Positions 1,052 to 38,127 of a stretch of 64,000 bases of DNA are shown in pieces. The translations under genes and the position numbers were made by a program. Every line of letters starts with the position of its first letter. Position 1 is the first letter of the stretch. This DNA comes from Tomocerus qinae. Its lineage: Eukaryota > Arthropoda > Collembola > Entomobryomorpha > Tomoceridae. The DNA is taken from contig CM034546.1 in the NCBI GenBank assembly GCA_020055645.1, positions 131,709,875-131,773,874 on the forward strand, in the 5' to 3' direction. The notes below the pieces were generated by a model that did not search any database, was not told where the DNA came from, and worked only from the letters and a program-made list of their open reading frames with translations.

Positions 1052-4000
1052 ATGGAGTCCTTTGAGGCTTGCAGCAGTAGCAAGAAGGCCAGACTAGAAA
1101 CAAGTTGTACACTTTGTGGAAAGTATTCCCATTTCTCAGAGAAAGCTGAAGAATACACAAAATTGTTAATTACTAATTTAGTTTCTCCATTTGAAAGAGA
1201 TGTATTCATTAAAGACGATAAACTAATTTGTTTTGAATTTTGTGTTGCCTGTGGACTTATGTTGGACCAATTGCTCGAATTAAAAAAAGCACTACAGTTT
1301 ATTTCAGATGGCATCAAGTCGAAGGTTGATGAAGTAAAGTTGCATATACTAAAAAATGAAAATGCCCAGAGTAGTCAAAACAAAGATGAAATCAATTCTA
1401 AATTTCGGAAAATTATGACTCGAGGTAATACATTTCTTGCATGACCATTTTAATTCTCATTTTTAACCATGTGTAAATCATTTTTAATTGTTTTTTATAT
1501 CGCAGATCTGCGTCCTGTAGTACGACTAGATTTGCAGAATGTTCTTGTTAAAAAGAAAGTGGAAGATTTTGAAAGTATTTCAATGAACTCGGACAATTTT
1601 TCCAACAATACAGATATAAGATCTCATATTATAGAAATTGACCCAAGAGGTTTTGAATATTTCGACGGGGAAGAAGAAATTGAACCTTGGGAGGAGACAA
1701 CGATCGAATGCTACGAAAATGGCTTTCCTGCAGTAAATTGTTCATCTCAAAATGGCAATAATTCGAACTCCAGTCTCAAAAACTCTGAAATGGAATGGCA
1801 AACAAAACCCAATTTCAGATATTGTCAATTAGCAATTATTGCACTAACAAGTACGAAAGACAATTGTGCCTTTTTTGATGAAATTTATTATTTCATTTTG
1901 TAAGTCTTTGCTAAATCTTTACAAAAATAATTATTTTAATTACAATGTAAGCAACTTTCAAGAATATTTTAAAATTATAAATTTTTGTTGCAGGGCTAAT
2001 TTTCCATTCTACAAAAGTTTTAGTTCGTTTAGACCATGTTTGCTTCGAGGTCTAAATTTAGGCATTTTTGAAAAAGAAAAGGAACCCCACACTTCCAAAC
2101 ACTTTTTTCGACTTACTACCAAATTAGGACCAAAGACAATAGAAGACATAATAACAGTATTAAATTCTCCTAAAGTCTTAAAAACCATGACTTTTCCAGG
2201 TAGAGCGTTTATTTGCATTTTTTAAATTCATAGCAAATAATTTTCAATTTTCATCCTTGTTTTAAAACTAAAATTTTTGAATTTACAGAACGACAGTTAG
2301 TTTTCATTGAAAATCTTCTTAATTTGCAAAGAAAAACGTCACTACAAAATGTAAATATTATCTAACACGTTATATTATAATTTCGTATGAAGTATTACGT
2401 AATATGTCTTTTGTATCTTTCTGCGTGTCCAGAAAATAGCAAAGGAAACCAGGTTCCAGCCAATGGAACAAGCTACTAGTCAATGGCAGAGACCACCGTT
2501 TCAATTATCTCAAATAATATTTATTGGATTAAGTAATTGCGTAGGAAAGCGAGCAAAGTCTAAACACCTAGTTGAATGCATCAGGTAGACATTTTATTCC
2601 TGATTTTATAGCTTTTAAATTATAATCAAATTTTTAATAATTTTTTTGCTTTACTGTACAACTTTTCAGAAATACATTTCCATTTTTCCTGGCCAAAAAT
2701 CCTGTCAAGACTTGGAAACAATGTCTGCATACCACTTTATTCATCAATAAATGTTTTACTAGGTCTGGAATGGCTAGATATGACCCCATTAATGATATAT
2801 GGAGTATTAATGAAAAGGAAGCAGAAAGCATGCGTGATAAAATCAAACAAGTTTTGGAAAGTGAAAAATTGAGCACATCAACTTTTATGGCTACCCCAGG
2901 TTTAATCCAAATTGTCTTTTGTAGGTTCAGAAAAACAATCTAATTTATGCAAAGCGTAATTGATTAAGAATTTTGTGATTCAAAATGCAGAAGTGGCCTT
3001 AAAAAATGCACTAAGTCAATCCTACGAGGATGAAATTCCAAATAGTTCAAACCAGAGCTTAAATGTGGCCCAAAAAGTAATTTCCGAATCCAATTATAAT
3101 ATTTATGTAGGTATGACTATAATAGAACTACGATAATAATATTCTAATATTTTTTTTATTATAGAATTGTAGTTCTTACATGATAGAAAATCTATTAGAT
3201 AAGCCAAGTAATCAAGTAAGTGTTTCTAACAAAAAATTTTTTAAATATTTTTTCGATTGAATATTTGATCAATTTATGTTCAACTTTTTGTATTGTTTAA
3301 TTTACAGGCAAATTCCAGCGCAAAAAGCGAAATACCTGCCATTGTTATAAATCCTGCAATACAGAAAAATGCATGGCAGGTCCCACCGCTTAATTTTGCT
3401 CAGTTAATTTTCTTGGCTTTATGCAACTTTCCTGAAAGACGAGCAAATGTTGCTGAAATAATGTCCAAAATTAGGTATAGGTAGTCTTTGATTTAAAAAA
3501 TACTCATCATCTCTACTTAATGAATTATTGAGTTATTATTATCTTGTATTAATATTTTTTAACCTAGGGACATCTTCCCGTTTGTAAATGGCCTTCATGC
3601 CAAATGGGAACGAGGAGCCACAACAGTACTCTTCCAAAATGAGAGTTTTGTTAAAACTAATAATGAAAATACAGAATTACGAAAACACATTTTCACCTTA
3701 AATGAAAAAGCCGCTGATGGAATGAGAAATGACATCAAAAACGCTTTGAGAAATAGCTCTGCAATTCAGGCTAATTTTATGAAAACACCAGGTAAAAAAT
3801 TAGTTAATTATTTTATTATTACATTTTAATAGCACTGTCCCCAAAAAAGTTTTTACAACCAACTATTCTATATTACAGTTGAGATTTTGAGAAACGCTTT
3901 AATTTATGAACTTTCTCCTACAAAAACTAACGATATAAATGGTCAAGTAAGACAGGTGATATCTTATTTATTTACATTTAATTACTGTACAATATTTGCC

Positions 4001-6048
4001 TGTAAAATAAATTTTGTTATTTTAGGATTCCGATGTAAACATCAGTGGATGGATAAAACCACCATTTACTTCCGCGCAGATTATTTTCGTGGCTCTAAGT
4101 AACTGTACGGAAAAACAAGGGAATCCTGTCGCAATAATTGAACGCATTAGGTAGGTTCTTATGAAATTATTACTCAAAATTCTGATGCATTGGTATATAT
4201 TTTCTAAATGTTGAATTTATTAGTTTTTGCTTGAATTTATTTCTGGTAAATTTATTATTGACCAAAATTTTGAGAATATTAAAATTCATATATTATTCAT
4301 GTCGTCAAATTATAAAACAAGGACCAAGATTGATAAAAATTTAGATGTGTAATTGCCATAAAAGTAAAGATTAAAATGAACTTTGATATTTTAGGTCTCT
4401 TTTTCCATGGTATCTTGATTTTGTGGCGGAGAACTTGTTAGATGTAACCACTATACTTCTTGGCAATGATAATTTTGTCAGAATAGATATACCATCCGAA
4501 GCCCATCTTCCTCACGCGAATCAAACTTGGACAATTAATGAAAAAGTGGCATATTGCATGAGAAATGAAATTAGCTCGATTGTTGAGCGTGAGGGACGGA
4601 ACTCATTATCTGAATACTTAGTAAATCCTGGTAAAAACGGAATTTCTTTTGGTCATCATTTATTCCGTATTTATTACATGGTTAAATAATTAATCTAATT
4701 TATAATCCAATACATTTTACAGAAGAAGCAATGCGAAAAACACTAATTGTGGAGAACTCTCGTCCAACGTCAGTGAACAGTAATGAAAATGGAAAGCTGC
4801 CAAAGAAAGTAAAAAAGGTATAAAAGAATTAGCTAATTATTATTTAATATGATAAAGTTTTGTAGAATTTGATTCATATTTACAATAATTTTGATACAAT
4901 TCATTTAGATAGTCTATATTTACTATTTATGCTTTATCCAATTAATTAAAAATGAATACTAATCTTAAAATAATTTTTTGATAGATTAATGGCACACCAA
5001 CTCGGAAATTATCTTGTGATTCTTCCAACTTTAGCAGTAGCAGTAAAATTGTGAGTTGTAGTTATAAGTTTGAATCTCTTTTTTTTCTAAATATATAATT
5101 GACATGTTTAACATGCAGTCCTGCATTATTTTATTTATCAGTCCATGGACCAAGAAGTTTATCCACAGTTGGAAAGCACTTCTGAGATTGATATTGGTGT
5201 AAGTATATAAATTAAGTACATGACTAAAGTGCACTTGTGTATATAAATTGAAATATACAGCTATGATAAATTTTTTTGTATAGGAGATAAAAATAGAGCA
5301 AGAATTTACTGCAGCACCTCAGAGCCCGATAAACACACCAATTCCATTTACAATTGTGGAACAAGACAACATAAATAAAAATTGGACTTTACCTCCGTTC
5401 ACTATATCTTTATTAGCTGCTTTCACCATAGCTAATAATAACTACCAACCTATGACTGGCTTCTCAATTTGTGAATCAATAGCGTACGTTTATATTTCTA
5501 TTAGCAATCACATTTACTAAAAATATTTTCACGTGTTCTTGTTTTTAGAAATTATTGATTTCCTATTACGTTTAATGCAATTCCAAAATTAATGAATTAA
5601 TATTTTTGTCTTTTACAGAAATTACTTTCCGTATTACCAAAAATGCCGAAAAACATTAAGTGAAAAAATTTATTTTTCTCTACGCAATAGATTGTATTTT
5701 GTAGAAGGCTGCAGCAACAAAGACAAAAATTTGCTTCGATTTTCTCTTAATATTGAAAACAAGGAAGCCATGGCCAAGTTAAAGTCAGAAATATACGATG
5801 TGTTCAAAAAATTTTATATACAAACTTACGAAGCGTTTTCTAAACCGAGTAAGTAATTTATCTTTGTTGGAATTATTAAAAGTCTTTGTTAGAGACTAAT
5901 GCGCCTGATTATTCTTTTTCATTAGATGATGACTAATTACATTTATTTTATTACAGGTAAACTTTATCCTATGTTGAGGAATTTAATTGGAAGTGACTTT
6001 GATTTAGGCTTTTTACAATCTGTCACTGTCTACCGTCATGTTGAGTGA
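1052..6048 (+). CDS. ZAD-like protein with five tandem divergent forkhead-like domains
   Basis: Nineteen exons: 1052-1424, 1506-1899, 1994-2199, 2289-2350, 2433-2584, 2670-2899, 2991-3076, 3165-3215, 3308-3474, 3568-3791, 3879-3946, 4026-4150, 4395-4630, 4723-4817, 4985-5050, 5142-5198, 5284-5483, 5619-5848, 5957-6048. They sum to 3114 nt, 1037 residues plus stop. All introns are GT-AG. The start ATG has A at -3. Residues 19-67 hold two C-x2-C pairs (19/22, 64/67) followed by a Leu-rich helix, like a ZAD dimerisation module. Five repeats start near residues 222, 363, 541, 680 and 898. Each reads like a forkhead domain: PPF/PPL..AQLI..AL.N, an EI...IR helix, FPF/FPW, often a Trp, ..L..N.CF, then a W/F-TLNE wing. 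The base-contacting Asn and His of the usual NSIRHNLS recognition helix are absent in all five, so specific DNA binding is doubtful. Each domain is cut by a phase-2 intron just before FPF and followed by a phase-1 intron. Probably nuclear; function unknown. A polyA signal lies near 6120. The ends of exons 7 and 11 have alternative donors. Confidence 0.85.
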
Positions 6049-7369
6049 TTTGTAGTAGAAATATTTCTCTTCTAAATGGAAACGATGCTTATATGCTTTT
6101 AAGCTGTCCAGATGCAAGAAATAAATACAGTAGAAAAGTAAATTCTGGCGATGAAAGAAATATGACACATTTATTCCTATAAAAAATTACAAATAAACCC
6201 CACTTTTGTAATTAGGCATTCATATTGCAAAATTATTGACAAATAGTGCATCAGTATCAGTATAGCTTGGAATTCAGTTCAAAATGTTGTTAGGCAAAGT
6301 AAAAATAACATAGCTATACTCAATATTGCATTGTCGCTCTTACAATGTAGTTTTTATATTTTTATTTTACTCATTCTACACCCACTGAAGATGTTTTTAT
6401 CATTTTGTGGTAAATTTTTACGCGCCAAAAAGGATTGTAACAATACTAATAGCTGCAGTTATACTATAATAGGAAAGTATGACAGGACTTTCGAAAAAAA
6501 GGAAAACTATAGATTATACTAGGTATTATTATATATTATAGGAAGAATATACTTTTGCTACCCACAATTTTTAGTCCTTTGCAATGGAAGACATAGATAC
6601 TACTACACTAGCGGAATATATTTTCGATTATTGACACAAGTATTAAATGGTAAAGAATTTCAAAATTTATTTGACCTATTTGTAAATTACTTGAATTATT
6701 CTTTTGAAAATTGCTTTATGGCCTAAGATATTATTTAAGAAAGGATATACCATCTAAGTTTAGCACTTAAGAAAATCTTAAACCACGATTAACACAAATT
6801 ATTGCATGCAGTATAGTTTTTATATACATGGTAGCTAAATATTTCAGGTAATTGTTTTCAGTTCTTAGTCGTTACCTACTTCATTGTTTTGTCCGCATAT
6901 ATAAGTACCTATAATTATAATAATCGTAACATTGTATATTGTATAACAGTCAAAGTTACATAACACGGAAAGTATTTGAACTTGGAATGAAACGTTTTTA
7001 ATTATATTTATTGTTGCATAATATTATATACTTTTCATTTCGGAAAAATAATTCTAATTTAGCATTGAAAATTATTCAATTTCTTACTTTTCCCATTTTT
7101 TAAATAATTTCATTTCATGAGTTTCAAATTGTATATAGTCATAGTTTATTAAAGTTAATACTAATAACTTTCAAATATTCCGAGATTTCGATATTATTAA
7201 GAATTAATTAGATTTGTATTTTCGTAGATTGAATTAGACCTGTCCATATTAATATTACAACCAGGATGAATTATTGCAAAATAGTTGAAGATCAAACCGA
7301 TAGGGTAAGTCAACATGTTTTTCAGATCTGGAAAACAGATTTTCTTACCAACTGGGAGAGAAATATAGT
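6049..7369. other. 3' UTR and intergenic, no gene seen
   Basis: The AATAAA near 6120 probably ends the upstream transcript. The rest is AT-rich. A 63-codon open frame at 6331-6522 has no splice context or recognisable motif and is taken as chance. Confidence 0.5.
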
Positions 7370-12367: not shown

Positions 12368-14053
12368 ATGCGTCGAAAATGTGCCGTGAAAAACTGCAAA
12401 AACACTAGCGATAATACAATGCATTCGTTTTTCAGCTTTCCAAAAGATATAAAAAGACGAGAAAAATGGCGAAATATCCTAAGGATTAAAGAGTGGGAAA
12501 TTTACAACGGTACTGTTATATGTGGCCAGCATTTTCAAATTTCAGAATTTACAAGCCATAATAAAATACAGCTTAAGCAGATTGCTTTACCGAGTCCCCC
12601 ACCATTTGAAATGTAAGACATTATTATCTATTGATTTGTAATTGTCAATTTATATTTGGATACACAATAAGACTTCTTTTCCAAAATAGGGGTTTCCCAT
12701 TCGATTCCCTCTCTGTATTATCCTGGAGTTGTGGGAAACGTCTATAATAGATGTAAAGAGGATATTACGAGATTTAAAGAGAGTGACATTTACTACATTG
12801 CTTTTGATTTTTATTTGTAGCCAACAGCTTCAGGATTCAGACAAGCTGACCGCTGCTTCAAAAGTCATTTCTATATTACCCAGCCCAATCAGTGATTGAA
12901 AACCATGCGTGATTTGCCATAAGTTAACAAAACCCAAAAGTGGGTTTTTGTTAAAATGTCAAAAATTATTAGATATATGCAGCAAATATTTGCATTCGCT
13001 ACTCTCTCAAAAGGAAACTAGTTCTTTGCCCATCTTTTGTGATACTTGCATCGTTTCTGCAAAGGAACTGGAAGCTTTGACTAAACAGTTGGAACAGTTA
13101 CAAAACAGGGTCAACAACTTGGTGTTTCAATTTGCGTTGACAATTTCCGAAAGAAATAAATTAATTAGCCAATATTCTTTCTCATCGACGATGCCAGTAA
13201 CAATGAACTTGGCCCCCGTTCTTTCAAAATCTCCTCTGCCTGTTATTTTGCCAAAAGCAAGTTCAAACATAGAAAACATTATTGCATCAGAAACAACCCT
13301 TAGTTCCGAATCTCCGCATTTTCTTCAAACCCAACCGACTGAAACCATCATCTTCGACGAAGTAAAAGTTGAATACCTTCCAGAAGACGATTCAACTGTA
13401 GAAGACGAAAATAGTTCATCAATTAAAACTCCATTTCAATCGTGCTTTCAAGTGACTGATACTCATTCCTCCGGTAATCCAGAAACTGATCTTGTAAAAT
13501 CTGAATGTTTTCAAACAGAAGGAGAAACAACTGCTGAAATTGTTCCCATGGATGAAGTCAAAGTTGAATATTTTCCAGAAAATTTATTTTTAGAAAATGA
13601 AAATTTTGTAGACCCCGAAACCGATCCGCTATACGTTTCTTTACCACATCAAATTATTAAGTCAACGTCACAGACAAACAAAAGAGTACAAACTCCATGT
13701 CCCAACTCTTATCAAAACCATTATGGACCGTCTAAACGTAAAATTATTAATTTTTTATTATTTACTGCTAAATTGTTATTACATTTACACTCACTTTTCC
13801 CAATTCACTTAAATCCAAATCTCAATCCCATTTTATTTTAGTAACCCAAAACTGTTCTATATATTTTCCTAAAGTCTGCTCTTAAATCCATGTATGAGTT
13901 AATAAGGATGCCATATAAAAACAATATATTATTAGTTAATATTTGTAGTCTTATTATAGTTTCAAGTTTCAATATTAACTTTTTAAAAGTAATTTTTCCT
14001 GTTTAATAGGCGCAAGATTGGATTCTGAAGAGAATAAAAGACGAATAACATAA
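12368..14053 (+). pseudogene. THAP-domain plus ZAD-like protein, paralog 1, with one in-frame TGA
   Basis: Exons 12368-12612, 12821-13737 and 14010-14053 (1206 nt, 402 codons) have the same splice phases (2, then 1) as the intact paralog at 15497-17900. Exon 1 is a THAP zinc finger: C-x4-C near residue 5, HSFFSFPKD, KWRNIL, then CGQH and an ALPSPPP end. Exon 2 holds a ZAD-like module (CVIC ... CDTC), a coiled coil (LEALTKQLEQLQNRVNNL) and two acidic VKVEY motifs. An in-frame TGA at 12897-12899 lies just before KPCVIC, where the paralog has Leu (TTA). No ATG restarts the frame for some distance. Exon 3 (RARLDSEENKRRIT) ends early and lacks the Cys-rich modules of the paralog. It may be a pseudogene, a THAP-only short protein, or a sequence error. 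No SECIS-like element was seen, so selenocysteine is unlikely. Confidence 0.7.
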
Positions 14054-15496: not shown

Positions 15497-17900
15497 ATGG
15501 GAAAGGCTTGTGCAGTTCCTGGATGTACAAGCGCTTATGATGGCAGTATGCATTCATTTTTCAGATTCCCAAATGATAAAGACCGAAATGAAAAATGGCA
15601 CAACATACTAAGTCTTAATAAAAATCCAACTTACAGCCATTGTCAAACTGTCTGTGGTGCCCACTTTCGTCCTAATCAGTTCACCAGTCGAAATAAAATG
15701 CGGTTGACAAAAACAGCTCTACCATTTAAGCCACCTAAATCGGAGTAAGTTCTATTATATAAAAATAAATATTAAACTCCTAAATTTACTATGTATTACA
15801 TATATGATATTTATTATTTTGTTATGCTGCAAAATCAATCCTTTAATTATCAAAATTAGTAAAATTCTATATTTGTATAGCAATCATGATCCAAGTGGGT
15901 CAAATAATGCGTTGCTGCCCGGAACAAGTGCTATGAATGGAAAGCCAAAACTACAATCCGATTTACCAATTGCTCCTGCTTTTAGTTACCACTTAAAACC
16001 TTGCGTCATTTGCCAGAATTTGACAAATCCTGGAAATAAATTCTTGGAAACATGTCAAAATAAGCTTCTAGAAATCTGCAGTAAATATCTGCATTCACCA
16101 CTCTTTCGAAAGGAAACTTGTTCTCTGCCCATTTTGTGTGAACCTTGTATCAATTCAGCAAAAGAACTGAAAATGTTGACGGAACAGTTGGAACAGATAC
16201 AAACTTGGATTAGCAATGTGGTATTCCAGTTTACTTTGGCTGTTTCGGAACGAAAAAAATTAAATTTCGGATCCTCTTCACTATCTTCAGTTCCAGTATT
16301 ACCCAATTTAACGACTGTTATTTTGCCAATTCCAAGTTCGACAATAGAAAACATTATTGCGTCGGAAACAACTCTCAATTCCGAATCTTTGATTGTTCCT
16401 CCAACAATAGTCACTGAAACCGAAACTGTTTTGTTCGACGAAGTAAAAGTTGAGTACCTTCCAGAAGCCCATTCAACTGCCGAAATCAGCTCATCAATAA
16501 AAACTCCATTTCAATCGTGTTTTGAAGTGACGGATACTCATTCAGGTACGAAGACAATTTCCAGCTCCGATTTTAAAGACCCCGATGTTTGTGAAACAGA
16601 AAGTGATACTAAAACGGAAATTATCCTAGTGGACCAGATAAAAGTTGAGTATCTTCCAGAAGATTCACTTTTAGAAGATGAAAACTGTGATATTACTACT
16701 GAGGATGAAGATGCTACAACTGATCCTCTGCTCGTTTCTTTGCCGGATGAAATTAATAAACCTAGTTCACCGACAACTAAAGGAATCGTATTTGCCAACC
16801 CTGAACCGCTTGAAAACCATTATGGACGGTCTAAACGTAATTAAATTATTATTCATTTTTGCTACTAAATATTCGTATGAAATGTTTAATTATTTAATTA
16901 TTTACGTACACATTTTCCCATTTTAACAAAATTGATATGTACCACTATGTTTAATGTTACCCATATCACTCAAAATGTTAAGCATGAAAAACATTATTTA
17001 GGGATGTGAAAAAGTAAGAATAACTGAAAGGTGACCACTCAGTGTGTCAATGACACTGGATTTAAATATGAACTTGAGAAATGGTCAAGTTTGGTTTTCA
17101 AAGGCATTTACTCGTCTTAAGCATATCATTAAGGCTTTTTGGATACGTATTAAATCTAATGTTAAAATATGGTATTTTTAAATAAAACAGGCGCTAGATT
17201 GGCTTATGATGACGCAAAATCTGAGTCTGATGTACACCTTGGACGGGAACCATGGTTGAACATTCCTTTCAATGAGAGTAGCAAAAAAGGTGACCTTAAA
17301 CACTCCAATAATAATTACAACGTAGGCGGTCACATAGGATCGTCGAGGTATTATTTCATCAATCTATTTATATATTGTAAAAGATTAATGCATAATCAAA
17401 AATTTGCTACTATCGATTAATTATTTACTCCTGAATATGCAAAGAATGCAAAATAATGTTTTATTTTTAGCCTCCTGAAAGAAGCTATCCCGAATACGGA
17501 AGACGACATTACACGGAATCCAGAACGCCCCTATAATTTCAACAATCCCCAACGATGCCGATTTCATTTAGGGGGTGAACGGAAGGGAACTCGTACAGGT
17601 TGCAGTTTGTGCCAAGCGCCAATATGTTTGGAGCATCAGCACAAGAAGATCCTGTGCATAAATTGCAGACATACGGATATTAGTAAACTTTCACCAGAAG
17701 AATTGGAACAATTTGGACGCCTCCATATTTTTAGCAATCCTCAACGATGCCGATTTCATATAGGGGGTAAAAGGAAGACAACCCGCACAGGCTGTAATGT
17801 GTGCCTAGTTCCAGTATGTTCGGATCATCAACAGAAAACGATCCTGTGCCCCAGTTGCAAAGATACACAAACAGTTGTATCTGGACAAAGTAACGACTAA
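15497..17900 (+). CDS. THAP + ZAD-like + tandem piggyBac-type zinc-module protein
   Basis: Exons 15497-15744, 15881-16836, 17191-17347, 17471-17900; 1791 nt, 596 residues, all GT-AG. Residues 1-82 form a THAP finger (C-x4-C, HSFFRFPNDKD, W, CGAH, ALPFKPP end), a C2CH DNA-binding module. Residues 124-172 hold two C-x2-C pairs (CVIC, CEPC) with a Leu-rich coiled coil after them, resembling a ZAD dimerisation module. The acidic middle has two repeats of FDEVKVEYLPE / VDQIKVEYLPE. The last exon has two near-identical units, ligands C483 H486 C498 C501 C506 H509 C516 C519 and C547 H550 C562 C565 C570 H573 C580 C583. The RCRFH..GKRK.TRTGC..C..P.C core resembles the Cys-rich C-terminal zinc domain of piggyBac transposases. 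No transposase catalytic core is present. It is probably a nuclear DNA-binding protein built from host-captured transposon modules; its target is unknown. Confidence 0.82.
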
Positions 17901-19146
17901 AGTATCTTTACTCAGCATGTGAATAACTTCATGATCCCACGCTAGAAAATGTTGATGCCAAGCGAAGTAATGGTCTACAAAGTTGAAACTCGTGAAAACA
18001 ATTATTTTTTATATTCGAATTCTTTGTGTATTAGCATATGCAATTCTTGATATAAATGAATTCAATCTATATTTAGTATAAATATTATTACTTTTATCAT
18101 TGTATGTATGGTATTTATTTTCCTCAGGGTTCCTTTCCATACTTTCATCAATTTTGTAAATTCATAATAAGTTTCCGACTATACGGTTGAATTATCTGAA
18201 TCACTTCCTAAAAATACTCATATTTGTAGACTCCAGGTTATTTTTAGTATTATACTATACGTATGGGCCTAGATTCAACACACCGTCGGAAGTTGTGTAA
18301 ACTTATTGCGCGGTTGATTATACATGATTTTAGTTTTATTTTTACGGTATTTGATCATTGATCTTCACATAATATGCATTGTATTCCCTATTCCCTTGTG
18401 ATTTTTGACTGATTAGATTAATTAGCTTAATTAATTAGTAATTTACAATATACAATACTTATCGAACAAAAGTTGGAGCATGACAAAAGTTACATAATCA
18501 TACTGTATTGACCTTAACATGCATATTGACGTCGAAAAATTTTTTACGTGGCAGTTACATTTATAAACTCAATATTGTAACATAAAGAACAGCATGTCAT
18601 TTTAAGTGAGGAAAACTTAATTTTGTAGTACTAAATAAAAATGTATATCCGTATAACAAAAAACTAGTACAGCAGTTGCCATTTTGAGGACGTCGCGTGC
18701 AAAATAGTGCAAATTGCATGTATCAGGCAAGATCAGGAAACTTTTTTCATCTCCTTTAATCATTAACATGGAATATATTATAAAATGACACTATGACACC
18801 AAACTGCATGATGATGGAAATCTATTTCATAATAAGTGTCTGTTTCAATCTGTTTCTACAATGCCTTTACGTTTATTGAGATTTAACGATATTTTTACAT
18901 AATAATAGCATGGTAAGTAATTCGGACGACGTCATATGAAAACAAAGAAGTGCAATAAATAAATCAAGATGGGCAATCCATATCACATATTGTTACTGAT
19001 AATGCGATATTGAATATAATATAGTAGGGATAAACTATAGAACTAATTCTTCCCCATAAATACTCGTTTCATTTAATATCTGGAATACACATGTTTAAGA
19101 ACTGCTTTCGTCAGATATTGATCAGATTGACGTTTAAGTTGTAAAA
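17901..19146. other. Intergenic, no gene seen
   Basis: AT-rich spacer between the THAP gene and the EB-module gene. No exon-like open frame, repeat or RNA gene was recognised. Confidence 0.5.
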
Positions 19147-20745
19147 ATGGGAACACAAATGTTTGGCGTCTTTATAATAACGGTTTTACTAATTAAAAAT
19201 TCAGAATCTGTTCGAAGTTCGTTTGGAGAATCATGTAACAATACGCAGAGATGCGACAGCCAAGCATGGCTTAGATGTTTCAACGGAATTTGTGGTTGCG
19301 TCAAGCAAGAGGAAATGAAATTCGACAATGAAAGAGCCAAATGTGTTTCGAATGTCGGTGAAAGATGCCAATTCAATTTGGGCAAAGGTTTATTTGAGAC
19401 TGCAGACTGTGCACAAAATTCTGAATGCAATTCAGAAGGATTTTGTGCTTGTGGCAGTAAATACTATGAATCATTAAACGGAACTTGTGATTTGTCCCGA
19501 TCTAGTGGAGAAAAGTGTTCTGACAGTGAAAAGTGTTCAAAGTTTGAGAATTTGGAATGCATAGAAGGTATTTGTGGATGCAATGAACAGAAAGCTACGT
19601 TTTCTATGACAGATGGGACTTGTGTAGGACTTTCGCACGAAAATTGTGTCAATGGCAAATGTATTACAGGAGCAAAATGCACTGCTGAGGGAAAATGTGT
19701 TTGTCTTCCCAATTTCTTTCACAGCCCAGATAACAAAAATTGTTATCCCCAGAAAGACATTTATCAAAGCTGTGTGAACCATTTTGAATGTCTTAAGAAA
19801 TCGGATATGATTCTGAATTGCGTAGATGGGTTTTGTAATTGTGCGCCTAATTTGAAATATGATTACGTTCAGAAATATGAATACAAATGCTTATATGGAT
19901 TTTTCAGGAATTGTAAAAAATGGGACAGTGATTGGGTAAAGGAATTCAAAGGGGAATTCAGTACTAGATGTGCCCCACTTGTTGGGGAAAGTTGCCCTGA
20001 AGGGTTTTGCGCCTCCAATTCAAAATGCGATATCCCAGTAGAAAAAAGATTCGATGAAAATACAAGATATGAATTTGGAATATGCAATTGTGCAACTAAT
20101 GATTACACCGAGGACAGAAAATTAAAACTTTGCGCCAAAAAACATGGCATTGGGTGCGGTTATAATAAAGAATGTGCCGGGGATCTAGACTGCGTAGATA
20201 AAAAATGCACTTGTCCTATGCGAAATCATCAAACGTTCTCAGACGCTCAAAATGCTTGTGTCACTATTGTGGAAGGTCACTGTACTCAAGAAACGATCTG
20301 TGTCCCCAATGCAATTTGTGACATGAGCATAAAGCAGTGCGCATGTCAACAAGGATTCCTCGCAAATGATTATGGCCACTGTGAAATTGAATTCGGCCGA
20401 AAATGTTCTGACTCAAGCCCTTGCGACTCAGTTGCTTCTTTGACTTGTGTGAATAACCGTTGCTCCTGCCCAGATAAAATGTATACATACTCCCCCACGT
20501 TAAGAAAATGTCTTGGACTGGTCGGTGCAACTTGCAGGAGAGACAGCCCCACCCAACAATGTATTGAAAACGCCAATTGCCAGGCTAAAATTCATTCCAG
20601 TCTATCTGGAGTCTGCAAATGCACTTCGGGATTTATGCTCGCAGTTCAAGACCACACTTGTCAAAAGATACCTACAGCAATTACAAGTATTACGAACAAC
20701 AATCAAACAGCAAGACCTTATACGGTTACTCCGAATGAACTCTAA
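19147..20745 (+). CDS. Secreted EB-module (Cys-rich, EGF-like) repeat protein
   Basis: One uninterrupted exon of 532 residues. A signal peptide is visible at residues 1 to about 21 (hydrophobic GVFIITVLLI, then NSESV). The rest is about ten Cys-rich units of 40-55 residues with the EB pattern: G-x-x-C ... C ... C-x(n)-G-x-C-x-C ... C (for example GESCNNTQRCD, RCFNGICGC; GRKCSDSSPCD, TCVNNRCSC). No transmembrane helix or GPI signal follows the last unit, and the tail is short and Thr/Asn-rich, so the protein should be secreted. EB and EGF-like arrays of this kind are common extracellular proteins in arthropods and nematodes; the ligand is unknown. A polyA signal (AATAAA) lies near 20908. Lack of introns is unusual next to its intron-rich neighbours and may point to a retrocopy origin, though no tail or target-site repeat was seen. 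Confidence 0.85.
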   Translation: MGTQMFGVFIITVLLIKNSESVRSSFGESCNNTQRCDSQAWLRCFNGICGCVKQEEMKFDNERAKCVSNVGERCQFNLGKGLFETADCAQNSECNSEGFCACGSKYYESLNGTCDLSRSSGEKCSDSEKCSKFENLECIEGICGCNEQKATFSMTDGTCVGLSHENCVNGKCITGAKCTAEGKCVCLPNFFHSPDNKNCYPQKDIYQSCVNHFECLKKSDMILNCVDGFCNCAPNLKYDYVQKYEYKCLYGFFRNCKKWDSDWVKEFKGEFSTRCAPLVGESCPEGFCASNSKCDIPVEKRFDENTRYEFGICNCATNDYTEDRKLKLCAKKHGIGCGYNKECAGDLDCVDKKCTCPMRNHQTFSDAQNACVTIVEGHCTQETICVPNAICDMSIKQCACQQGFLANDYGHCEIEFGRKCSDSSPCDSVASLTCVNNRCSCPDKMYTYSPTLRKCLGLVGATCRRDSPTQQCIENANCQAKIHSSLSGVCKCTSGFMLAVQDHTCQKIPTAITSITNNNQTARPYTVTPNEL

Positions 20746-21761: not shown

Positions 21762-24700
21762 ATGGGCACGATGGCAAATCATAAAGAAAACAATAAGCTA
21801 TTACAAGATATCGCTGAACTGCAGACAACAATTCAAAAATTAAAGAACAAAATTGATGCAGTAACTCGTTGGCTTAACTCCAAATTTGGTAAAATTATTT
21901 GCAAGAATATTCATTCTTCGATAATGCCTTAATAATATTGTGTATTGACAAAGTCTAATTGATTGGATCAGACGTCTGCTTATGACTAATAATTACAATT
22001 TTGAAAATACCTTCAATATTTTTCAGATATTTTACCCGATGATATAAAAGAAATTTTGTCAACTGATGACTTATCCTTTGATGAAGTAAATTATGAAAAT
22101 GGACTTGAAAAAGTATCTATTAACGAAAGAAATAATCTCCCCGTGCCTACTGAAGGTACTATTTAAATTTAATTGTAAATTCAAAATTAAAATATCAATA
22201 AAGCTTAAGAATTTTATCACTTGTTTAAGGGGTAACAGTAATTTCATCAACTGACTTGGATAATTTAACAAGTGAGGACGAGGGTACTGCCAATATCTGG
22301 TATAATGACGAAAAAGGGTAAGCTATAAAATATCGTATACCTATAATAAATTACTGTTCCTGCTACTTGTAAATCACTGCTAGTTTTAAAAACAGGAATT
22401 TAAAATATATTAAATCGTTTATCTAAGCCGAAAAATAGATATTATATTAAATGAATGTTTTTTTTAAATTTTAATATAATACAAAAACGTTTCCTCCCCC
22501 ATTAGTTTAGGTATTTTCCATCAAGAGCTATAATATTATTATATATTATAGGCTTACTACCATTAAAATATAATTTTATATTATTTATTTTTCAGTAATT
22601 CGATTAAAATTGAAGTTGCTGTGAAAGATGAAATTTTTTCGGATGATGAGGTTGAAAATGACCCCCTGGGTGATTCAGTTACTGAGAATGATATCAACAG
22701 TGTCAGTTCCGTCGAATGTGAGGATGATAGGAATTCAAAAACAACTCCAATTCCAAAATCCATGTTTGCAAAGTCCCTTGTTATTCAGCTAAATGATATT
22801 AAAAAATCTGGTGGTATCATCAATGAACAACGAAGAACGGGCAGAAACACTCAGATACCAAAAAGGAAGAGTTATCAAGTAAAAATTAATGAATTATTGA
22901 GAAAGGCCGAGTCAGATAATGTTTTGCCTGTGCAATCACCAATTTCAACTCCTTCCTTTGCAAGTTTTTCAAAATCCACGCGAGTCCGAAAGGCAACTCA
23001 AGAATATAGAAAAGATTTTCAGGAGGAAAATGATCTGATGGATGATGAAACTTGGGATCAGGGTACAAAGAAAACATTCCACTGCAATGTTACTGATTGT
23101 GGAAGAACATTTTTATATCGTCGCTCTTTTGAAAACCACGTGAAACACGGTCATCCCGACGAGGATGTCGAAGAAAGGTCAAATTCCGAGAATGATTCTT
23201 CCGATTCAGACTATTCCACTTCGCCTAAGCGACCTTTGAGAAGACAAGGTAAACGAAGAGGAAAGGGTAATAATTACGAATGTGACACGTGTGAAAAGTC
23301 ATTTCCAACAAAACTAGGACTTCACGTCCACGAAGTGAAAAGCCATGGGAAAGGTAAAGTATATCATTGTCACTACAACAGTTGTGAGAGAACTTTCCGG
23401 AGCAAATGTACTTTATTGAAGCATATGAGAACTTTTCACCCCGACTACGAAGGACTCCCGAAACAAAAACCAAGGGGGAAAAACAAACGGATTATTAAAT
23501 GCCTTTTCGACGGTTGTGACACAATATTCGATACTAGACGCAAATTAAATGCACACCAGAAGAAGGAAAATCATTTTGTGATAACGACTGAGTCTAAAAA
23601 TGAATCTATTGACGAAAACAGCAGTACGCAATTGAATTGCCAACAATGCAAAAAAGAATTCAATGATAAACTCTCCCTTTTAAGCCATTTGGAAACACAT
23701 GGAGATACTTTTAGATGTACATTTGCTAATTGTAACCAAATATTTATTAGTACATCGTATAAAAGTATCCACAAAACCAAGAAAGCCCATTGGACAGAGA
23801 TGGAACTCCAAAATGGCCAAAAAGATGAAAATGAGTTAGGAGAGTCAGAAGAAATTGTAAATAAAAATGAAAAACTAGATTCAAATATTTTGGCATGTCC
23901 AAAATGTGGAATAAAAGACTTTGCAACTAGAGAATTGCTGAACGAGCATATTTTAAATTCTTGTTACAAATGTAAATTATGCAAAAAATCTTTCGCCCTA
24001 AATAGTGATCGGGTCCTGCACAGTACAACATTATGCAATACGATTAAGACAACGAAAGCGAAGAAAATCATGACCGTTTTTGAAGATCAAGATTTAAACT
24101 GTCTATTTTGTCAAATAGAATTCTCTAGTCATTTAGATTTAGTAGATCATATGACTCTTCAACATTCTGTGAAATTATTTAGTTGTAGCCATCCTGGCTG
24201 CAAAAGAAGATTGAAATCTGAAGAGGAAGCTGTTGAACACGAAAATCAACTTCATTGCAAGATTTGCTACAGAGCATTTGTTCATGTGGCGTATTTCAAA
24301 GTTCACAATGATAAAGAGCACGATGGAAAAGAAGAAATCTCATTACTAACAGTTAAAAATGGGACAAGGAGCTTTACTCCAGGATTTCAATGTCCGCAGT
24401 GTGGGATAATTTTGGAATCTCTAAAATTGCTGAAATTGCATGCAGAGCGAGGATGTGTTAAATGTAATATCTGTGGCAAAATTTATACGACTAAAGCTGG
24501 ATTGGAAGAACATTTAAGGGTTCACAATCAAAATAAACCATTTTTGTGCAATACTTGTGGCCAGAGATTCAATAGAAAACACACCCTCCAAAAACATATC
24601 AACGCAAAGCACTCAAGTGACAAGAAAACATACAAATGTATGTCGTGCGACAAAGTCTTCTACAGTATGGTAGGCTACATCAAGCATGTCAAAGTCCACG

Positions 24701-24963
24701 ACGATGGAGAAATACCAAGAATACAATGCACCCTTTGTGGCTTTGATTTTGTCAGTGAAGGATCCCTCAGAAAACATACCTCAGCCATTCATGAAAATCT
24801 AAGACCGTATCCCTGCCATTTGTGCGACAAAAAATTCAAGACCCATTCAGCACGCAAATATCATGTACAGACTCATGACAATCCAAATGGTAGGAAAAGA
24901 AGCCTTAATAAAGACGTCGATGAATTTCATGCTGCTTCCAAGCGTCGTAAAATTAACAAATAA
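21762..24963 (+). CDS. C2H2 zinc-finger protein with about 17 fingers, paralog A
   Basis: Exons 21762-21888, 22027-22155, 22230-22317, 22596-24963; 2712 nt, 903 residues. Exon 1 encodes a short coiled coil (LLQDIAELQTTIQKLKNKID...WLNSKFG) that may mediate dimerisation. Exons 2-3 are acidic. Exon 4 holds about 17 fingers from residue 270 on, some classic (YKCMSCDKVFYSMVGYIKHV.VH), some with a longer Cys loop (FHCNVTDCGRTF), and three in which the last zinc ligand is Cys rather than His (NEHILNSC, LHSTTLC, LHAERGC). The last fingers form an evenly linked array ending YPCHLCDKKF...HVQTH, followed by a basic tail (KRRKINK) fit for nuclear import. It is a presumed sequence-specific transcription regulator; no KRAB, SCAN or true ZAD domain was seen. 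Intron phases (1,1,2) and exon 1 match the inverted paralog at 25868-28494. The second ATG (residue 4) is an equally possible start. Confidence 0.88.
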
Positions 24964-25867: not shown

Positions 25868-28494
25868 TTACAAAGCATTTCTTTCACTTTCCGGTGGTTT
25901 TCTCCGTCGCTTTGCACCAACAACTGTAATAATATCGAGATCCTTATTAAGCCCCCTTTTCCTTCCGTTGGGATTTTCGTGGGTTTTGACATGATATTTC
26001 CTAGCAGTGGTAGATTTGAACCTCTTATCACAGAGATGACAAGGATAGGGCCTTCGATTTTCATGAACAGCCTGGATATGGCTGCTAAGGGCTCTAGTAC
26101 TGGAAAAGTCGAATCCACAGAGATTGCAAAGTATTCTTGGAACTCCATCAGCGTCGTGAGTTTTCATGTGTCTAGAGTAGCCGACGGGAGTAACAAAAGT
26201 TTTTTCGCATAATGTACATTTGTACTTTTCTCTATTTGGTTCATGCTGAGTTCTTACGTGTCGCTCCAAATCGCTCTTTCTAGTAAATTGTTTTCCACAA
26301 CTATTACATAAAAATGCTTTTTCTTTGGTATGAGTTCTTAGATGGAGTTCTAAATTAATACCACTTGGAAATGTTTTCCCACAAGTCTTGCACTCTAAAC
26401 ATCCTATTTCCAAATGATTTTTAAACTGTGCAAAAGTTGTAACAAGTTTCCCACACTTAGAGCACTGGAAATCATTTTCAAAATCTCTAGGCTTGTTAGT
26501 TTTGTCAATTATTGATGTTGAAGCTTGTCCGGCGTGGGTTTTATTGTTGTGGATGGTAAAATTAGCCAAATGAGGAAATGATCTTGAACATGTTTGGCAA
26601 TGAAGCTTGCTTTCATGTTGATCAACTTCTGTTTCTAAAGCAAATCTTTTTTTACAGCCAATATGAACACAATTAAAAGTTTTTACTCTGTGGGCAGTTA
26701 CTAAATGATATTCGAAATCTTTTTCTTCTGCGTAATTCGTCTGACATAACTCACAGCTTAAACTCTTAGAAACTTCTTGAACCTTTTCATCTTTTTTATT
26801 CTTGCAATGAGCCAAATGCTCATCTCTGGTATTCTTTAGCGAAAAAGGCCGTTGACAAAATTTACATTTGTAACAGTAGTTAAAAATATGTTCATTTAAA
26901 AATTCTCTTGTCGGACAATTGGTTTCACACTTCGGACAAACGAAACTATTTCCATCATTATTCTCAACACCTTGACTTTCAGTTACAGTAACATTTTTAA
27001 CCATTGCTGCTCTTGCTTTCGGTTGTGGTTTTTGATTTAGTAATTTGCCTTTAGTTTTATATTTGCGACGACAAACGTGATTATTACATTCTTCTAGTGT
27101 ACAAAAGCTTCTACGACATTTCTCACACACATGACCATCTAAACTGATCTTATCCTTTTTATAAAAAGGCTCTTCCCTCACAGTTGCATAATATTCAGGG
27201 TGATGATTTCTCATATGACTATAAAAAGCACCTCTCGCCAAAAACGCTCGATGACATTTTTTATAATGGCAATGAAACGGCTTATTTTTATCATGGCTTT
27301 TAGTTTCATGTTTTTTTCGTGCAATTTCAGTCTTAAATACTTTTTGACACGAGCTGCATTTGGACTTACGGTCAGATTTTCTTTTCTCCACATTTCTTTC
27401 TATTGTTGTAGTTGATGATCGAATAGTAGCTTTAACATTATTGCACTTATTAATGTCTTCCAAGATGATGACTAAATTCTTTGTCAGATTGAACTTCTCG
27501 ATCATGTTTTGATAGCACGAAATTTTCAAATCTGTATCGAAAATGTCCTTGTCCAGTTGTAACTCGTCTTCTGATCTGCTGAAAATCTTTTCATCAAAGG
27601 ATAAATAAGGACATAATCCTTCCAGGAGATCATTATCGTGGTCATTATCAGTACCAGACAGATATTCATCTTTGATACCAAAATCTTCTTCTTTAAAAGG
27701 CATACTTCTGAAATTTTAAAAGAATTAAAATGAAAAAATTGGTGAAAATACCTGTTTTAAGTATCTTTCCTGAATTAATTTGTCTACTTTTTAAGAATTA
27801 ATAACTGAAAAGCATACGTCGTTTCATTTTCGGGATTGCTTTCAATAACATTATATTCCAAACCAGTAATGCACGTTTTAATTGGTGAGCCGATCACCTT
27901 TTCAGACGCTTCAGGAAAAAAGAAAAAAAACATTTTCAACATTTGATTCAGTATTCAGTGCTATTACCAAGGGTTAAAGATTTATTGCTAAAATATTATC
28001 TACTTTATTTCGCGACAAAAAATTAACTTACTATAATATTTTATCAATTTATTGGTGTATACTTGAGAAGACTTACTAGTACTATTTTCTTGGGCAACGG
28101 TTAAAATATTCTGGCTATCTGAAAAACTTTCACAGCACAATTCTTCACATGATGAAAGGATGCCCTTTATATTCGAAGGAAGGACATCTATAATTAATTA
28201 AAAAAGCATTAGATTTTTCTGTTATTGCAGTTAAATAGAACATAACAGTTTCATGCCCATCATAAATCAATTAACAGGTCATTTGAATTATTTTAAAATA
28301 TTCAAAACCTTGGAATTGGCGGAAAACTAGTATAATTTCATAAAAGGTCAAAACTTACGATGTAATGTACTACACTTACCAAACTGAGAATGAAGCCAGC
28401 TACTAATTTCGCCAATATTGTGTTTTAACTTGTCAATTATAGTCAACAGTTTGTCAATATCTTTTCGAACGTTTTTTGAGTTATTTTTAGCCAT
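25868..28494 (-). CDS. C2H2 zinc-finger protein with about 14 fingers, paralog B
   Basis: Minus-strand exons 28494-28380, 28187-28077, 27908-27818, 27707-25868; 2157 nt, 718 residues. Exon 1 gives the same short coiled coil as paralog A (IDKLLTIIDKLKHNIGEIS.WLHSQFG), and all three intron phases (1,1,2) agree. The last exon holds about 14 C2H2 fingers. As in paralog A, some end in Cys (NEHIFNYC, HLEIGC), the penultimate finger reads ILCNLCGFDF and the last YPCHLCDKRFKSTTARKYHV.TH, followed by NPNGRKRGLNKD and a basic tail (KRRRKP). It is a presumed nuclear DNA-binding regulator. It lacks about three of paralog A's fingers. The two genes lie tail to tail, so they arose by an inverted duplication or were later inverted. 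Confidence 0.88.
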
Positions 28495-33220: not shown

Positions 33221-36200
33221 ATGGAAAACCTTTTCAAAAGGGCTTTCATTACAATTTTATTTTTCAACTGCGTTTATACGAATGAGTTTTTCATTCTTAG
33301 GCATCTTGACAAATATCCAAAACACCTTTTAAAGCCCTTTTGCCATGAAGCCTGTACTCAATTATTTGAGAATTCTCCTGCAGTTTATTTGAGCATATTT
33401 AGTCCTAAGATAATTCAAAATGAAATTCACTAAGTTCTTGTGTTTTCCCAATACAATGGAAACTATAGTACGGCAGATATTCCTGATTTTACATTCTACA
33501 TCAAATGTGGCAATCGGGAATATTCAAGTGAACCACTTAAACTCAGATTTGGAACTGTACAGAATGTAACAATTCCCGTTGGGTTGCTTTCAGATCTACA
33601 GACATCCAGATTTTATAGTCCATGTGAATTGAATTTTAGGTCAAGTTTTCATCTCAAATTGACAAGACACGGTCCCAAAATATCACAAATGGCACTCTCA
33701 CAAGAAACTTTGGTACAAGAAACAACAAGAATCGTCATACAAACCGACAGACCTGTGTATAAACCGAAAGATACAGTAAAATTTCGAGTTCTTGTGCTGA
33801 ACAGTAAATTAAAGGTAATTCCACAAAGTAACATCACAGTGGAAATTTCAGATTCCGAAAAGAATAGAATCAAACGATGGAAGAATATTCCAGTTACAAA
33901 TGGGATGTTCTCTAACAATTTATCTTTATCAGAAGAACCAAATCTTGGAGACAGGAAGTTGAGTGCAACTGCTGAAGGGAAGACCGAAACTGTCCATTTT
34001 AAAATTGACAAGTACACACTTCCAAAGTTTCAGGTGAAGTTAAAACACGTTAATTACGTGACAAACGAAGAATCAAATGTAACTGTTAAAATCAGAGCCT
34101 TTTACACGTATGGTAAAGGGGTCAATGGAAACGCCACAATTTCTTTAAGAAGATCACGAACATTGGAGATGCACAACTGGAGACGCTTTACGATAAGTGA
34201 AAAAGTCGAGGAAATAGTTAAATCGGTAGAAATTGTCAATGGAGTTGGTACAGTTGACTTTGACTTGAAAGAAATGAACATAATTGCTGGGAATTATGCA
34301 AAGGAATTTGTATTTTCGGTTAATGTAACAGAAAAGGTGACAAAAACCACGCATTCCGAAGAATCTTTTATTAAATTATATCGGGATAAATACAAGCTGA
34401 CCCTTCTGAGTCCAAGTAAGCAATGTCGTTTGATGCCCGTCGCTCTCAAGTTTAAAATAACGACTCAAGATGATAAACCTGTTTACGATCCCCAACCGGA
34501 TGCAGTTATCATAATTGCAGAAAATGACAAGATTCCAGAATTGAAACGTCCCCTCTCAGTTGATGGGATTGTAAATGTCGAATATAATTTAACTAGAAAT
34601 ATTGAAAGTCTCTCATTGAGAATATACTACAGAAACTTTAATTCTAGCATTATAAATATACAGACCACAAAAGGATATTCAAAATCTGGAATTGAAATGA
34701 AACTATTTCCACTATCGACTCAAGTGAATCCAGGTGAGTTGATCGCAGTTCAAGTACGTACAAATAGTGCCATGAAGAACATAATGCTGAACTATTTTTT
34801 AAAAAGTGGTCAGCAATTTGTTCACCAAGGGATTATCAATCTTGAAAATAACGACTTTACTTTCAATAAGGTCATACACTTTCAAATCCCAGAATACAAA
34901 TTTGAAAACGATCAAATTCTGCTGTGCGTATTTTTCTTTGAAGATACTCCAGAGGGAAAGGATTTAGTATTTGAATATACCAAACTGTTTGGATCAGGTG
35001 TACAATCTCTGCAGATACAAAAGCCACAGGAAACTTATAAACCTGGAGAAGAAATTGTGCTTCATTTCTCGACAAATTCTTCAGCAACATCCTCCATTTT
35101 GGCATTAAGAGCTGTTGACGAATCAATATTTTTATTGCCTAATAAAGATAACGATATTACTATTGAAAGTTTGAAAACCAACACTTCCTCATCTTCTGGT
35201 AATTCACTACAATCTTCGGATGAAACGTTCGTGAGTAGTGTAACACAGCACATTTCGAAATGTGATCTGATATTTTTAACTTATAGTTTCAAAATCAACA
35301 AAGAGTCTACATTTCTTTCAATTACTCAAACTGATGATGTGTGTGCGAGATGCGAAGAAAGACTCATGTTCCTGGAACCAAGTATAGAAAGCATACTGTT
35401 TGAGCAAGACCTCATTGCTAAAGAAGAAGCACGTCAAATGGAGAAAATGGAATGGAAATGGAAACCTGAACTTTTAATATTGCAGTACGAAGCATATCGA
35501 CTTCAACGTCAAAAAGAGCGCGAACGTGCAGAGTTACCATACATAAATCGAATAACTGCGCACGGTTTGGAAATACAACAGCGTCCTGAAACGATGAACA
35601 TGCATACAAATCCCAATTTTCAACCACCATCAATACCTAGAAATGATATGATGGAGAACGAATGCACCAGGTGTCAAACTATTGATCTGGAAAAATCTGA
35701 CGAGGGAGCAATAATGCCTATACAATTAGAAACCAGAGTGCGAAAACATTTTCCTGAAACTTGGATTTGGACTGAAATTTCGACTGTTAACACTTCCCAT
35801 ACGACATTTACGACGACGTTGCCAGACACAATGACCACGTGGGTTATTACAGCCTTTGCCCTGAGTTCTGATTCGAGTTTATCTGTCATGGAATCTCCTC
35901 AAAAGATTACAACCTTTCAACCCTTTTTTACTAGCTTGAATCTGCCTTACTCGGTAATTAAAGAAAAAGCATTTTCCCTTCAAGTGCTGGTCCACAATTA
36001 CTTAAATGTGGATATCGTAGCAAATGTCACATTGGATAATATCAAAAAAGAGTATCAATTTATTGGTCTCGACGAAGATCTGTTAAAATCCAGTAAATTA
36101 CTCAAAGTATCTCCAAATCAAGTCTCTGCAATAAATTTTGTTATCGTTCCAAAAATATTTGGAAATATCACCCTGAATGTTAAAACTATTTCAGATGTTG

Positions 36201-38127
36201 ACACATTTTCTGACGCGTTATCCAGACAATTACTTGTTATGCCGGACGGCGTCAAGAAAACGGAAACAAAAAACATTCTGATCGACCTGCGCAATGTGGA
36301 AAAGATGAGTGAAGATATTGCCATTTTGTTTCCAACGAGAAGAGTTCGTGGAGCTGATCGAATAAAAATCAATGTAGTTGGCGACCTGATGGGAATTTCT
36401 GCTGAAAATTTGGACAATTTGATCCACCTGCCCACAGGATGTGGAGAACAGAATATGCTAAAGTTTGTCCCAGATGTCGTCATTCTCCGCTATTTGAAAG
36501 CCAGAGAAATGCTGACAGCCTCCGTAGAAAAGAAACTGCTACAATATTTGGAAATCGGGTACATGCAGCAATTAAAGTTCAGACATCCCGACGGATCTTT
36601 TTCTGCATTTGGATTCCGTAGCGATACAAATGGCTCCACTTGGCTGACGGCTTTTGTCGTCAAGTCCTTTGCATGGGCTCGTGAATTCATTAATATTGAC
36701 GATGAACTCTTCGAAAAGGGACTAGAATTTTTAATCTCCACACAGGATTCGGAAACGGGAGAGTTTATTGAAAATGGGAGGATTTTCCATACATCAATGC
36801 AGGGTGGATCCGGTTCTAAAGGAGTTCCAATTACAGCTTACGTTTCTGTGGCTTTACTGCAGGTTTTGAAATTCTACGATTCTAAGAATTCAGCCTTATC
36901 ATCGGCTATTCAAAAAAGTCTAAATTTTATTACCAGGTCAAATAATACAGAAGATCCATTTTCTGTCATATTAAGTGCCTACGCCTTTCAAAATGCAAAT
37001 CATGAGTCTAGTGATAGATTTTACGATTCGATGAATAAACTTTCCGTTCAAAGTCCTGGACTTCTACATTGGGAAAAATCAAATGAGTTAACAACCAATT
37101 CTGTCACTCCGTTGTCAATTGAAATGACATCTTATGCATTATTGACATATTTAAGTAGAAATCAATTTACTGAGGGAATTCCTGTTTTTAAGTGGCTCAT
37201 GTTACAAAGAAATAGCAACGGAGGATTCCAATCAACACAAGACACTGTTGTTGGTCTAATGGCGTTGGCTAAATATGCTGAAAAAGCATTTTCTCCATTT
37301 GGGAACAATCTGACTGTGTCGGTTGAAACGGACGGATTTCTAAAATCCTTTTCCATTGACGAGGACAATCAAGGCTTACATGAAGTTATTTTGGCAGATG
37401 TAAACAGCACGCAATTCAAAGTCATGGCTTCTGGCAATGGAACTGCGCTGGTTCAAGTCTCATCCAGTTATTACGTAGGAGGAGATGACTACGATCATTC
37501 TACGGATGGAAATAATAATACTCAACCATTCGTCATTAAGGCCAAGGTATTTTTATTATCCATTTCATGCAAAGATGTTTTTCAAAAAAGGTTAATATTT
37601 TAAATTTCAAAACGTTTTTTAATTTTCACTCGATGATAGTAAAATGTATTTAAAAATCTTCATGGTACTTATAGCTAACCAGTTATTAATTCATTTATTT
37701 TTTACAGGTTACAAAGTTGGATGACAATGGAGAATCTGTCCAGTTAACTGTATCTACCAAGGCAACTTATACCGCCAAGACCTCCATGGCTGTTGTTGAA
37801 GTTAAACTGCCCCCAACTTACACTATATTTGATAAAAATGTGGAGGATGTCAAGAAGGCCGACAATGTAAAAATGGTCGAATTGGAAACTAGGAAGGGAT
37901 ATGTTAAACTAATTGTCTATTATGATTCTCTGGGATCTGAATCATCTTCTTTCACAGTTCTTCTCTCCCGGTCTCATTCGATGGCTGATGTCCGCACTTT
38001 GTCCATTACTGCTTACGAGTATAACGGGGACAAAAAGTCTGTTGTTTTTGAGAAACTCCCTTACAAAACGATTTGTGATCTGTGCATTGAGAACAACTCA
38101 TGCAATATTCGAAACTGTACTATATAG
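33221..38127 (+). CDS. Thioester-containing protein (TEP/CD109-like), copy 1, with one in-frame TAA
   Basis: Exons 33221-37546 and 37708-38127, phase 0 junction, 1582 codons. A signal peptide spans residues 1 to about 20. MG-type domains follow (IQTDRPVYKPKDTVKF is the MG2 start). A long, highly charged bait-like region lies around residues 700-800 (rich in Lys, Arg, Glu), then VRKHFPETWIW. The thioester motif GCGEQN is at residues 1073-1078, a His in FHTSMQGG at 1190 sits where the catalytic His of the C3/CD109 type lies, and exon 2 carries the C-terminal receptor-binding domain with Cys pairs at the end. Family role: a secreted opsonin or protease trap that bonds covalently to targets. TAA at 33431-33433 (codon 71) interrupts the frame where copy 2 has GAA (Glu); the remaining 1511 codons are open in the same frame. 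So this is a very recent null allele, a sequence error, or read-through; a start further in would lose the signal peptide. Confidence 0.85.

Follow-up and report, generated by a model that had tools for sequence, protein, structure and literature searches.

A predicted springtail gene with five tandem forkhead-homologous domains and rewritten recognition helices

The FOX proteins, a much-studied group of transcription factors, usually carry one forkhead domain each. What might a single gene do with five? The question is raised by a locus of the springtail Tomocerus qinae (Collembola), on contig CM034546.1 of assembly GCA_020055645.1. We analysed a 64,000-nucleotide stretch of this contig (forward-strand positions 131,709,875 to 131,773,874), called the window below, and all coordinates refer to it. 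An earlier note, made from the sequence alone, had proposed that positions 1052-6048 encode one protein with five tandem forkhead-like domains behind a ZAD-like module. Our analysis makes it very probable that the predicted model is a single gene with this five-forkhead architecture and that its repeats are forkhead homologues. Two features that the note had not described were also found: none of the five repeats has the Asn, Arg or His of the FOX recognition helix, and the repeats share a common three-exon module.

Forkhead homology and the shared exon module

The 1037-residue predicted protein matched Pfam Forkhead (PF00250) in five stretches, with an overall E-value of 2.5e-34 (117.7 bits); the second-best Pfam family reached only E 0.072. 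The five repeats, R1 to R5, start at residues 222, 363, 541, 683 and 898, at most three residues from the positions proposed before, and all lie on the forward strand. R1 occupies 1796..2198, its tail segment reaching exon 4 (26.9 bits, E 5.4e-6); R2, 2484..2898 (33.4 bits, E 5e-8); R3, 3374..3790 (45.0 bits, E 1.2e-11); R4, which is acidic, 4050..4629 (21.3 bits, E 2.9e-4); and R5, 5383..5847 (18.3 bits, E 2.6e-3), the values in brackets being those of each repeat against Pfam Forkhead. The single-repeat profile search suggested by the note thus gave a divided result, two of the five (R2 and R3) lying above the curated cut-off of 27 bits and R1, R4 and R5 below it. When each repeat was compared with FOXC2, the observed score was reached by none of 500 shuffles, with z values of 10.6, 11.9, 14.0, 11.2 and 6.3 for R1 to R5. 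Together with the five-stretch Pfam match, this bears out the proposal of five tandem forkhead-like domains.

A profile built from the five repeats retrieved 50 PDB sequences at E<=1, the best at 5.5e-12. At E<=0.014, 45 of 46 were forkhead proteins, the remaining one being labelled eIF3b; four further matches, at E 0.48-0.8, were unrelated. The closest relatives were FKH-14, FOXC2, FOXG1 and FOXK1. Single-repeat PDB searches covered R1, R4 and R5, and forkheads made up 17 of 19, 10 of 11 and 4 of 7 of their matches at E<=1, respectively. In both kinds of search some entries under older names are counted as forkheads, which we presume them to be. As a side observation, the eIF3b-labelled chain (5a5u_B) aligns with the forkhead profile along residues 170-248 (E 1.8e-8), close to the stretch matched by a FOXA1 chain (170-247); 5a5u_B is perhaps a mixed or mislabelled record.

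The repeats resemble FOX factors in their PPF/PPY start, in a helix 2 ending in FP[FYW], in the position of helix 3 and in a W/F-x-L strand. FP[FYW] is kept in all five, and the N..F that follows helix 3 in FOX factors is present in R2-R4. The hydrophobic motifs listed in the earlier note are likewise recognisable in R2-R4 and only partial in R1 and R5. The protein departs from FOX factors in having five domains rather than one, an extra tail segment in each repeat and a four-cysteine N-terminal module, as well as in its recognition helices (see below).

Each repeat is interrupted by a phase-2 intron at an equivalent codon, always immediately 5' of FP[FYW]: at 1900-1993 in R1, 2585-2669 in R2, 3475-3567 in R3, 4151-4394 in R4 and 5484-5618 in R5. 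It follows complete codon 33 in R2-R5 and, owing to a one-residue insertion, codon 34 in R1. The intron belongs to a larger module made of an N-half exon, a C-half exon and a tail exon, the last opening with a similar, probably helical segment in each copy. Intron phases run 2, 1, 0 in all five modules, except that in R5 a stop codon replaces the last intron. The common three-exon module and the equivalent phase-2 intron point to internal duplication as the origin of the array.

R2, R3 and R4 are closely related (pairwise shuffle z of 29.6-35.4, with R4-R2 at 35.4 and R4-R3 at 30.2). Other pairs are distant: R1-R3 gave 8.7, R4-R5 7.2, R3-R5 3.8 and R1-R4 3.6. Because of their low z to the other repeats, R1 and R5 would be old or fast-evolving members of the array. 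The best argument for grouping R1 and R5 with R2-R4 is the shared intron structure, which depends little on residue similarity. In a five-row tree of the repeats, R1 and R5 sat on very long branches and neither inner branch was supported; for this reason, no order of duplication is claimed. Codon-position differences between the N-half exons of R2-R5 showed at most a mild third-position skew and were not used as evidence.

Clade II FOX genes, too, have an intron inside the forkhead domain (PMC8918179, PMC9539403), and in this respect all five repeats resemble them. The site differs from that of sea-urchin FoxO: the repeats are split just 5' of FP[FYW] in phase 2, whereas FoxO is split at GWK|NSIR (PMC11353378, Table 2), in phase 0 by our own reading of the exon-end letters given there. 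Descent from clade II is possible but unproven, because the comparison covers one FoxO site and because some clade I genes also have introns (PMC9539403).

Could the likeness to forkheads be a matter of chance, or reflect another winged-helix family such as H1/H5, ETS or ASH2L? The weakness of R5 on its own, in Pfam as in the PDB, would allow it for that repeat, but the Pfam, PDB profile and FOXC2 shuffle results and the intron position common to all five repeats speak against it, and we regard it as extremely improbable. All together, the Pfam and PDB sequence searches, the shuffles and the shared intron positions support five tandem forkhead-homologous domains predicted in one reading frame.

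Gene model and splicing

The coding region (1052..6048, forward strand) comprises 19 exons, at 1052-1424, 1506-1899, 1994-2199, 2289-2350, 2433-2584, 2670-2899 and 2991-3076 (exons 1-7), 3165-3215, 3308-3474, 3568-3791, 3879-3955, 4026-4150, 4395-4630 and 4723-4808 (exons 8-14), and 4985-5050, 5142-5198, 5284-5483, 5619-5848 and 5957-6048 (exons 15-19). All 18 introns are GT-AG. The model of the earlier note, closing at 1037 residues, was thereby reproduced exactly. No other in-frame ATG lies between an upstream stop and the start codon at 1052. Two other donors, 3106 instead of 3076 in exon 7 and 3946 instead of 3955 in exon 11, also leave the frame open, so that the 1037-residue product is one of four equivalent models, whose products range from 1034 to 1047 residues. 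Exons have a GC content of 35.0%, against 21.8% for introns, which are 70-244 bases long (70-108 in 15 of the 18). Possible polyadenylation signals (AATAAA) follow at 6120..6125 and at 6192 on the same strand.

Splice sites were scored by a leave-one-out procedure, donors being ranked among 224 GTs and acceptors among 266. The poorest acceptor was that of intron 5 (rank 61), and the poorest donors were those of introns 17 (rank 136), 6 (rank 83) and 15 (rank 73). The ranks of introns 15 and 17 bear on the alternative that the model fuses two or more adjacent genes, the likeliest break splitting off R5 after exon 14. If intron 14 were retained, an in-frame stop ending at 4823 would close the frame; this intron also holds an ATTAAA at 4945, exon 16 contains a Met codon, and the short linker exons 15 and 16 have no homology that we could find. 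A fusion nevertheless appears distinctly unlikely: the frame is kept at all joins, the linker exons are phase 0-0 and are followed by the same 2-1-0 module, and the AATAAA signals lie 3' of 6048. R1 to R4 would stand together even then. Whether R5 belongs to the same gene is, moreover, a question separate from how the repeats work, and the discussion below keeps to the predicted five-repeat protein.

Recognition helices, charge and the four-cysteine module

Helix 3 of FOXC2 and FOXG1 reads WQNSIRHNLS, and its Arg is one of the core DNA contacts of FOX proteins. The residues aligned to NSIRHN are QCLHTT in R2, RGATTV in R3, LDVTTI in R4 and EKIYFS in R5. In R1 they are RGLNLG; this is the least certain of the alignments, as three extra residues immediately precede the site. 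The Asn is kept in none of the five repeats, nor is the Arg, nor the His, and at the other positions the only NSIRHN residue retained is the Ile, in R5. PMC7062188 describes the core contact residues of helix 3 as strictly conserved across FOX members, even those with different DNA motifs, and names the Asn and the His among them; in yeast FHL1, it notes, the Asn is replaced by serine. Because all three residues are absent from every repeat, the protein is better described as a forkhead-fold array than as five ordinary FOX domains. Our reading is that the fold would have been retained and its job changed, the residues suggesting that ordinary sequence reading has been lost.

Over their first 88 residues, R1 to R5 carry net charges of +4, +7, +2, -3 and +5, compared with +5 for FOXC2 and +6 for FOXG1 over stretches shorter than 88 residues. 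In the helix-3 region the corresponding values are +2, +3, +1, -2 and +4, against +2 for each of the two FOX proteins. Such values bear on how far DNA binding may have been given up. One possibility is that it was abandoned altogether, the protein being a scaffold of protein-binding winged helices on a conserved forkhead fold. The loss of Asn, Arg and His from all repeats would fit, as would the acidity of R4 in both domain and helix-3 region and the modest charge of R3 over its first 88 residues; Pfam also lists the ASH2L winged helix after Forkhead for R3, at a non-significant E of 0.096. On the other hand, the charges of R1, R2 and R5 come close to those of the two FOX stretches, and four repeats (all but R4) have a positive helix-3 region, so that we consider a pure scaffold a lesser, though real, possibility.

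The same four positive helices, and the fact that recognition helices vary between repeats on a constant scaffold, could also be taken to mean that each repeat reads a new DNA word of its own, the protein, paired through its four-cysteine module, recognizing a long composite site in the manner of polydactyl zinc-finger proteins. Zinc-finger arrays have short, regular linkers, and those between the repeats are 23-92 residues long and widely unequal, which makes such an arrangement unlikely. If true, it would be a new way for a fold normally present in single copy to yield a protein that reads DNA sequence.

Exon 1 encodes, at 1103..1345 (forward strand), a CxxC-x41-CxxC module with cysteines C19, C22, C64 and C67 (residues 19-67), followed by a long predicted helix with a heptad-like pattern. 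ZAD cysteines are spaced as two CxxC pairs, and the earlier note had called this region ZAD-like. Its cysteine pattern and predicted secondary structure agree with that description. The sequence searches do not add to it: neither a zf-AD match in Pfam at E<=10 nor a ZAD match by sequence in the PDB was found, with the proviso in both cases that the search filters (those of HMMER) lose most matches above an E-value of about 0.1, and in NCBIfam exon 1 gave two weak, irrelevant matches (R3 gave none). An AlphaFold2 model, computed from an alignment of three such modules in the window, had a mean predicted local distance difference test score (pLDDT) of 73.7 and a predicted TM-score (pTM) of 0.48, and has two short helices and some short strands ahead of a long helix, which begins at the second CxxC. 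Foldseek returned two chains at E<=10 for this model, the second being 7poh_A, the ZAD of Serendipity-delta (E 10, probability 0.06, TMq 0.46). Since so few hits were returned, this match is suggestive of a ZAD; it is not proof, and the identity stays unproven because, without a Pfam or PDB sequence match, the single link has an E-value of 10.

In PMC5081699, the ZAD is described as a four-cysteine, single-zinc domain at the N-terminus of arthropod zinc-finger factors; several are dimeric, and ZADs help nuclear localisation. The predicted protein is similar to these factors in that a four-cysteine N-terminal module precedes domains of a DNA-binding type, and differs from them in having no C2H2 fingers in its Pfam listing and no zf-AD profile match.

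The other two modules in the alignment start at 12903 and 15999; they are 16 and 17% identical to that of exon 1, and the spacing between the CxxC pairs is 41, 40 and 41 in the three. They belong to two adjacent gene copies (12401-13838 and 15497-16841), each with a THAP-like start followed by a CxxC-x40/x41-CxxC and helix module. The THAP domain of the second copy (15497-15746), which lies upstream of the module at 15999, was confirmed by Pfam (5.8e-14), and that of the first was recognised by eye only. The first copy may be decayed or otherwise spliced, since an in-frame TGA (12897-12899) directly precedes its module.

Proposed function, relatives and neighbouring genes

We propose that a three-exon forkhead module was duplicated internally, giving rise to the five tandem winged-helix homologues of the 1037-residue protein, with the hydrophobic core and the FP[FYW] turn kept and the DNA-reading helix rewritten in each copy. 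The protein would be nuclear and multivalent. The basic repeats R1, R2 and R5, and more weakly R3, would still touch nucleic acid or chromatin but would not read the forkhead motif, RYAAAYA, as FOX proteins usually do; for the acidic R4, protein binding would be more likely. Like a ZAD, the four-cysteine module at the N-terminus would hold zinc and join two molecules, and the outcome would be a dimeric, many-contact regulator of chromatin or transcription. For this predicted multivalent binding of chromatin or DNA that dispenses with canonical motif reading, paired through the four-cysteine module, we judge the case to be about evenly balanced.

Several observations weigh against this proposal or against parts of it. 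Taken alone, R4 and R5 fall below the Pfam cut-off, and R1 just under it (26.9 against 27 bits). The direct z between R1 and R5 is 0.2, which is chance level. The sole structural model of a repeat, made for R3 with an intron read through, had a mean pLDDT of 63 and does not represent a domain. In it the two parts of R3 are joined through the in-frame intron of 93 bases (31 codons); the other alignment rows were the exon halves of R1, R2 and R4 together with the N half of R5, whose misaligned C half was dropped. A long helix runs across the intron part, and the model was kept out of the fold searches. The putative zinc module matches no family in Pfam or by PDB sequence. The loss of the reading residues is equally compatible with pure protein binding. 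Finally, besides a KKK at residue 140, a simple scan showed one cluster resembling a nuclear localisation signal, at residues 822-831.

How isolated is the array? Among the 2044 stop-to-stop open reading frames of at least 20 residues in the window, the repeat profile found above threshold the ten exon halves of R1-R5. There was no further copy in the 64-kb window, the next match (E 0.7) overlapping exon 4 of the same gene. Searching R3 against a collection of genome contigs without animal genomes gave 54 pattern matches, none confirmed; R2 against viral contigs gave 5, again none confirmed; and residues 1-483 had no match in phages. Among the open-access papers that a phrase search listed, none had a multi-forkhead protein in its title or in the opening of its abstract. 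For a forkhead combined with a ZAD, the open-access matches listed, as far as their text was accessible, included nothing relevant, one paper mentioning the two separately. These negatives agree with the note's suggestion of a new lineage-specific family, which would still be a tentative one: as the search covered open-access literature rather than annotated animal genomes, there may well be relatives that are known but unpublished, or that are present in databases alone. In PMC9539403, fox orphan-3 of Owenia fusiformis is reported to combine a forkhead domain with RING and RAWUL. Like the present gene it is a divergent forkhead gene with added domains, but it is not reported there as an array. 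Odd forkhead combinations are therefore already known, although no array was seen in that source.

The surroundings of the gene hold further families. Two tandem Cys/His-rich, ribbon-like repeats (RCRFH...GCxxC...CxxH...CxxC) at 17457-17897 have no significant Pfam match, and a long cysteine-rich open reading frame with EB modules lies at 19138-20742. C2H2 zinc-finger genes at 22567-24960 (forward strand) and 25871-27715 (reverse strand) have similar fingers in opposite orientation. A thioester/alpha-2-macroglobulin-type gene is found at 33434-38124, and the start of a second one at 62880-63818. Such thioester and zinc-finger genes, taken with the short AT-rich introns, would by themselves suggest an arthropod.

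The exon module is visible in all five copies, which would make the duplication history recoverable from related genomes. A five-copy gene that lacks the usual reading residues and has kept the hydrophobic core would be a natural experiment on the other uses of the forkhead fold, and the same gene may be informative on the ways of arranging winged helices in arrays.

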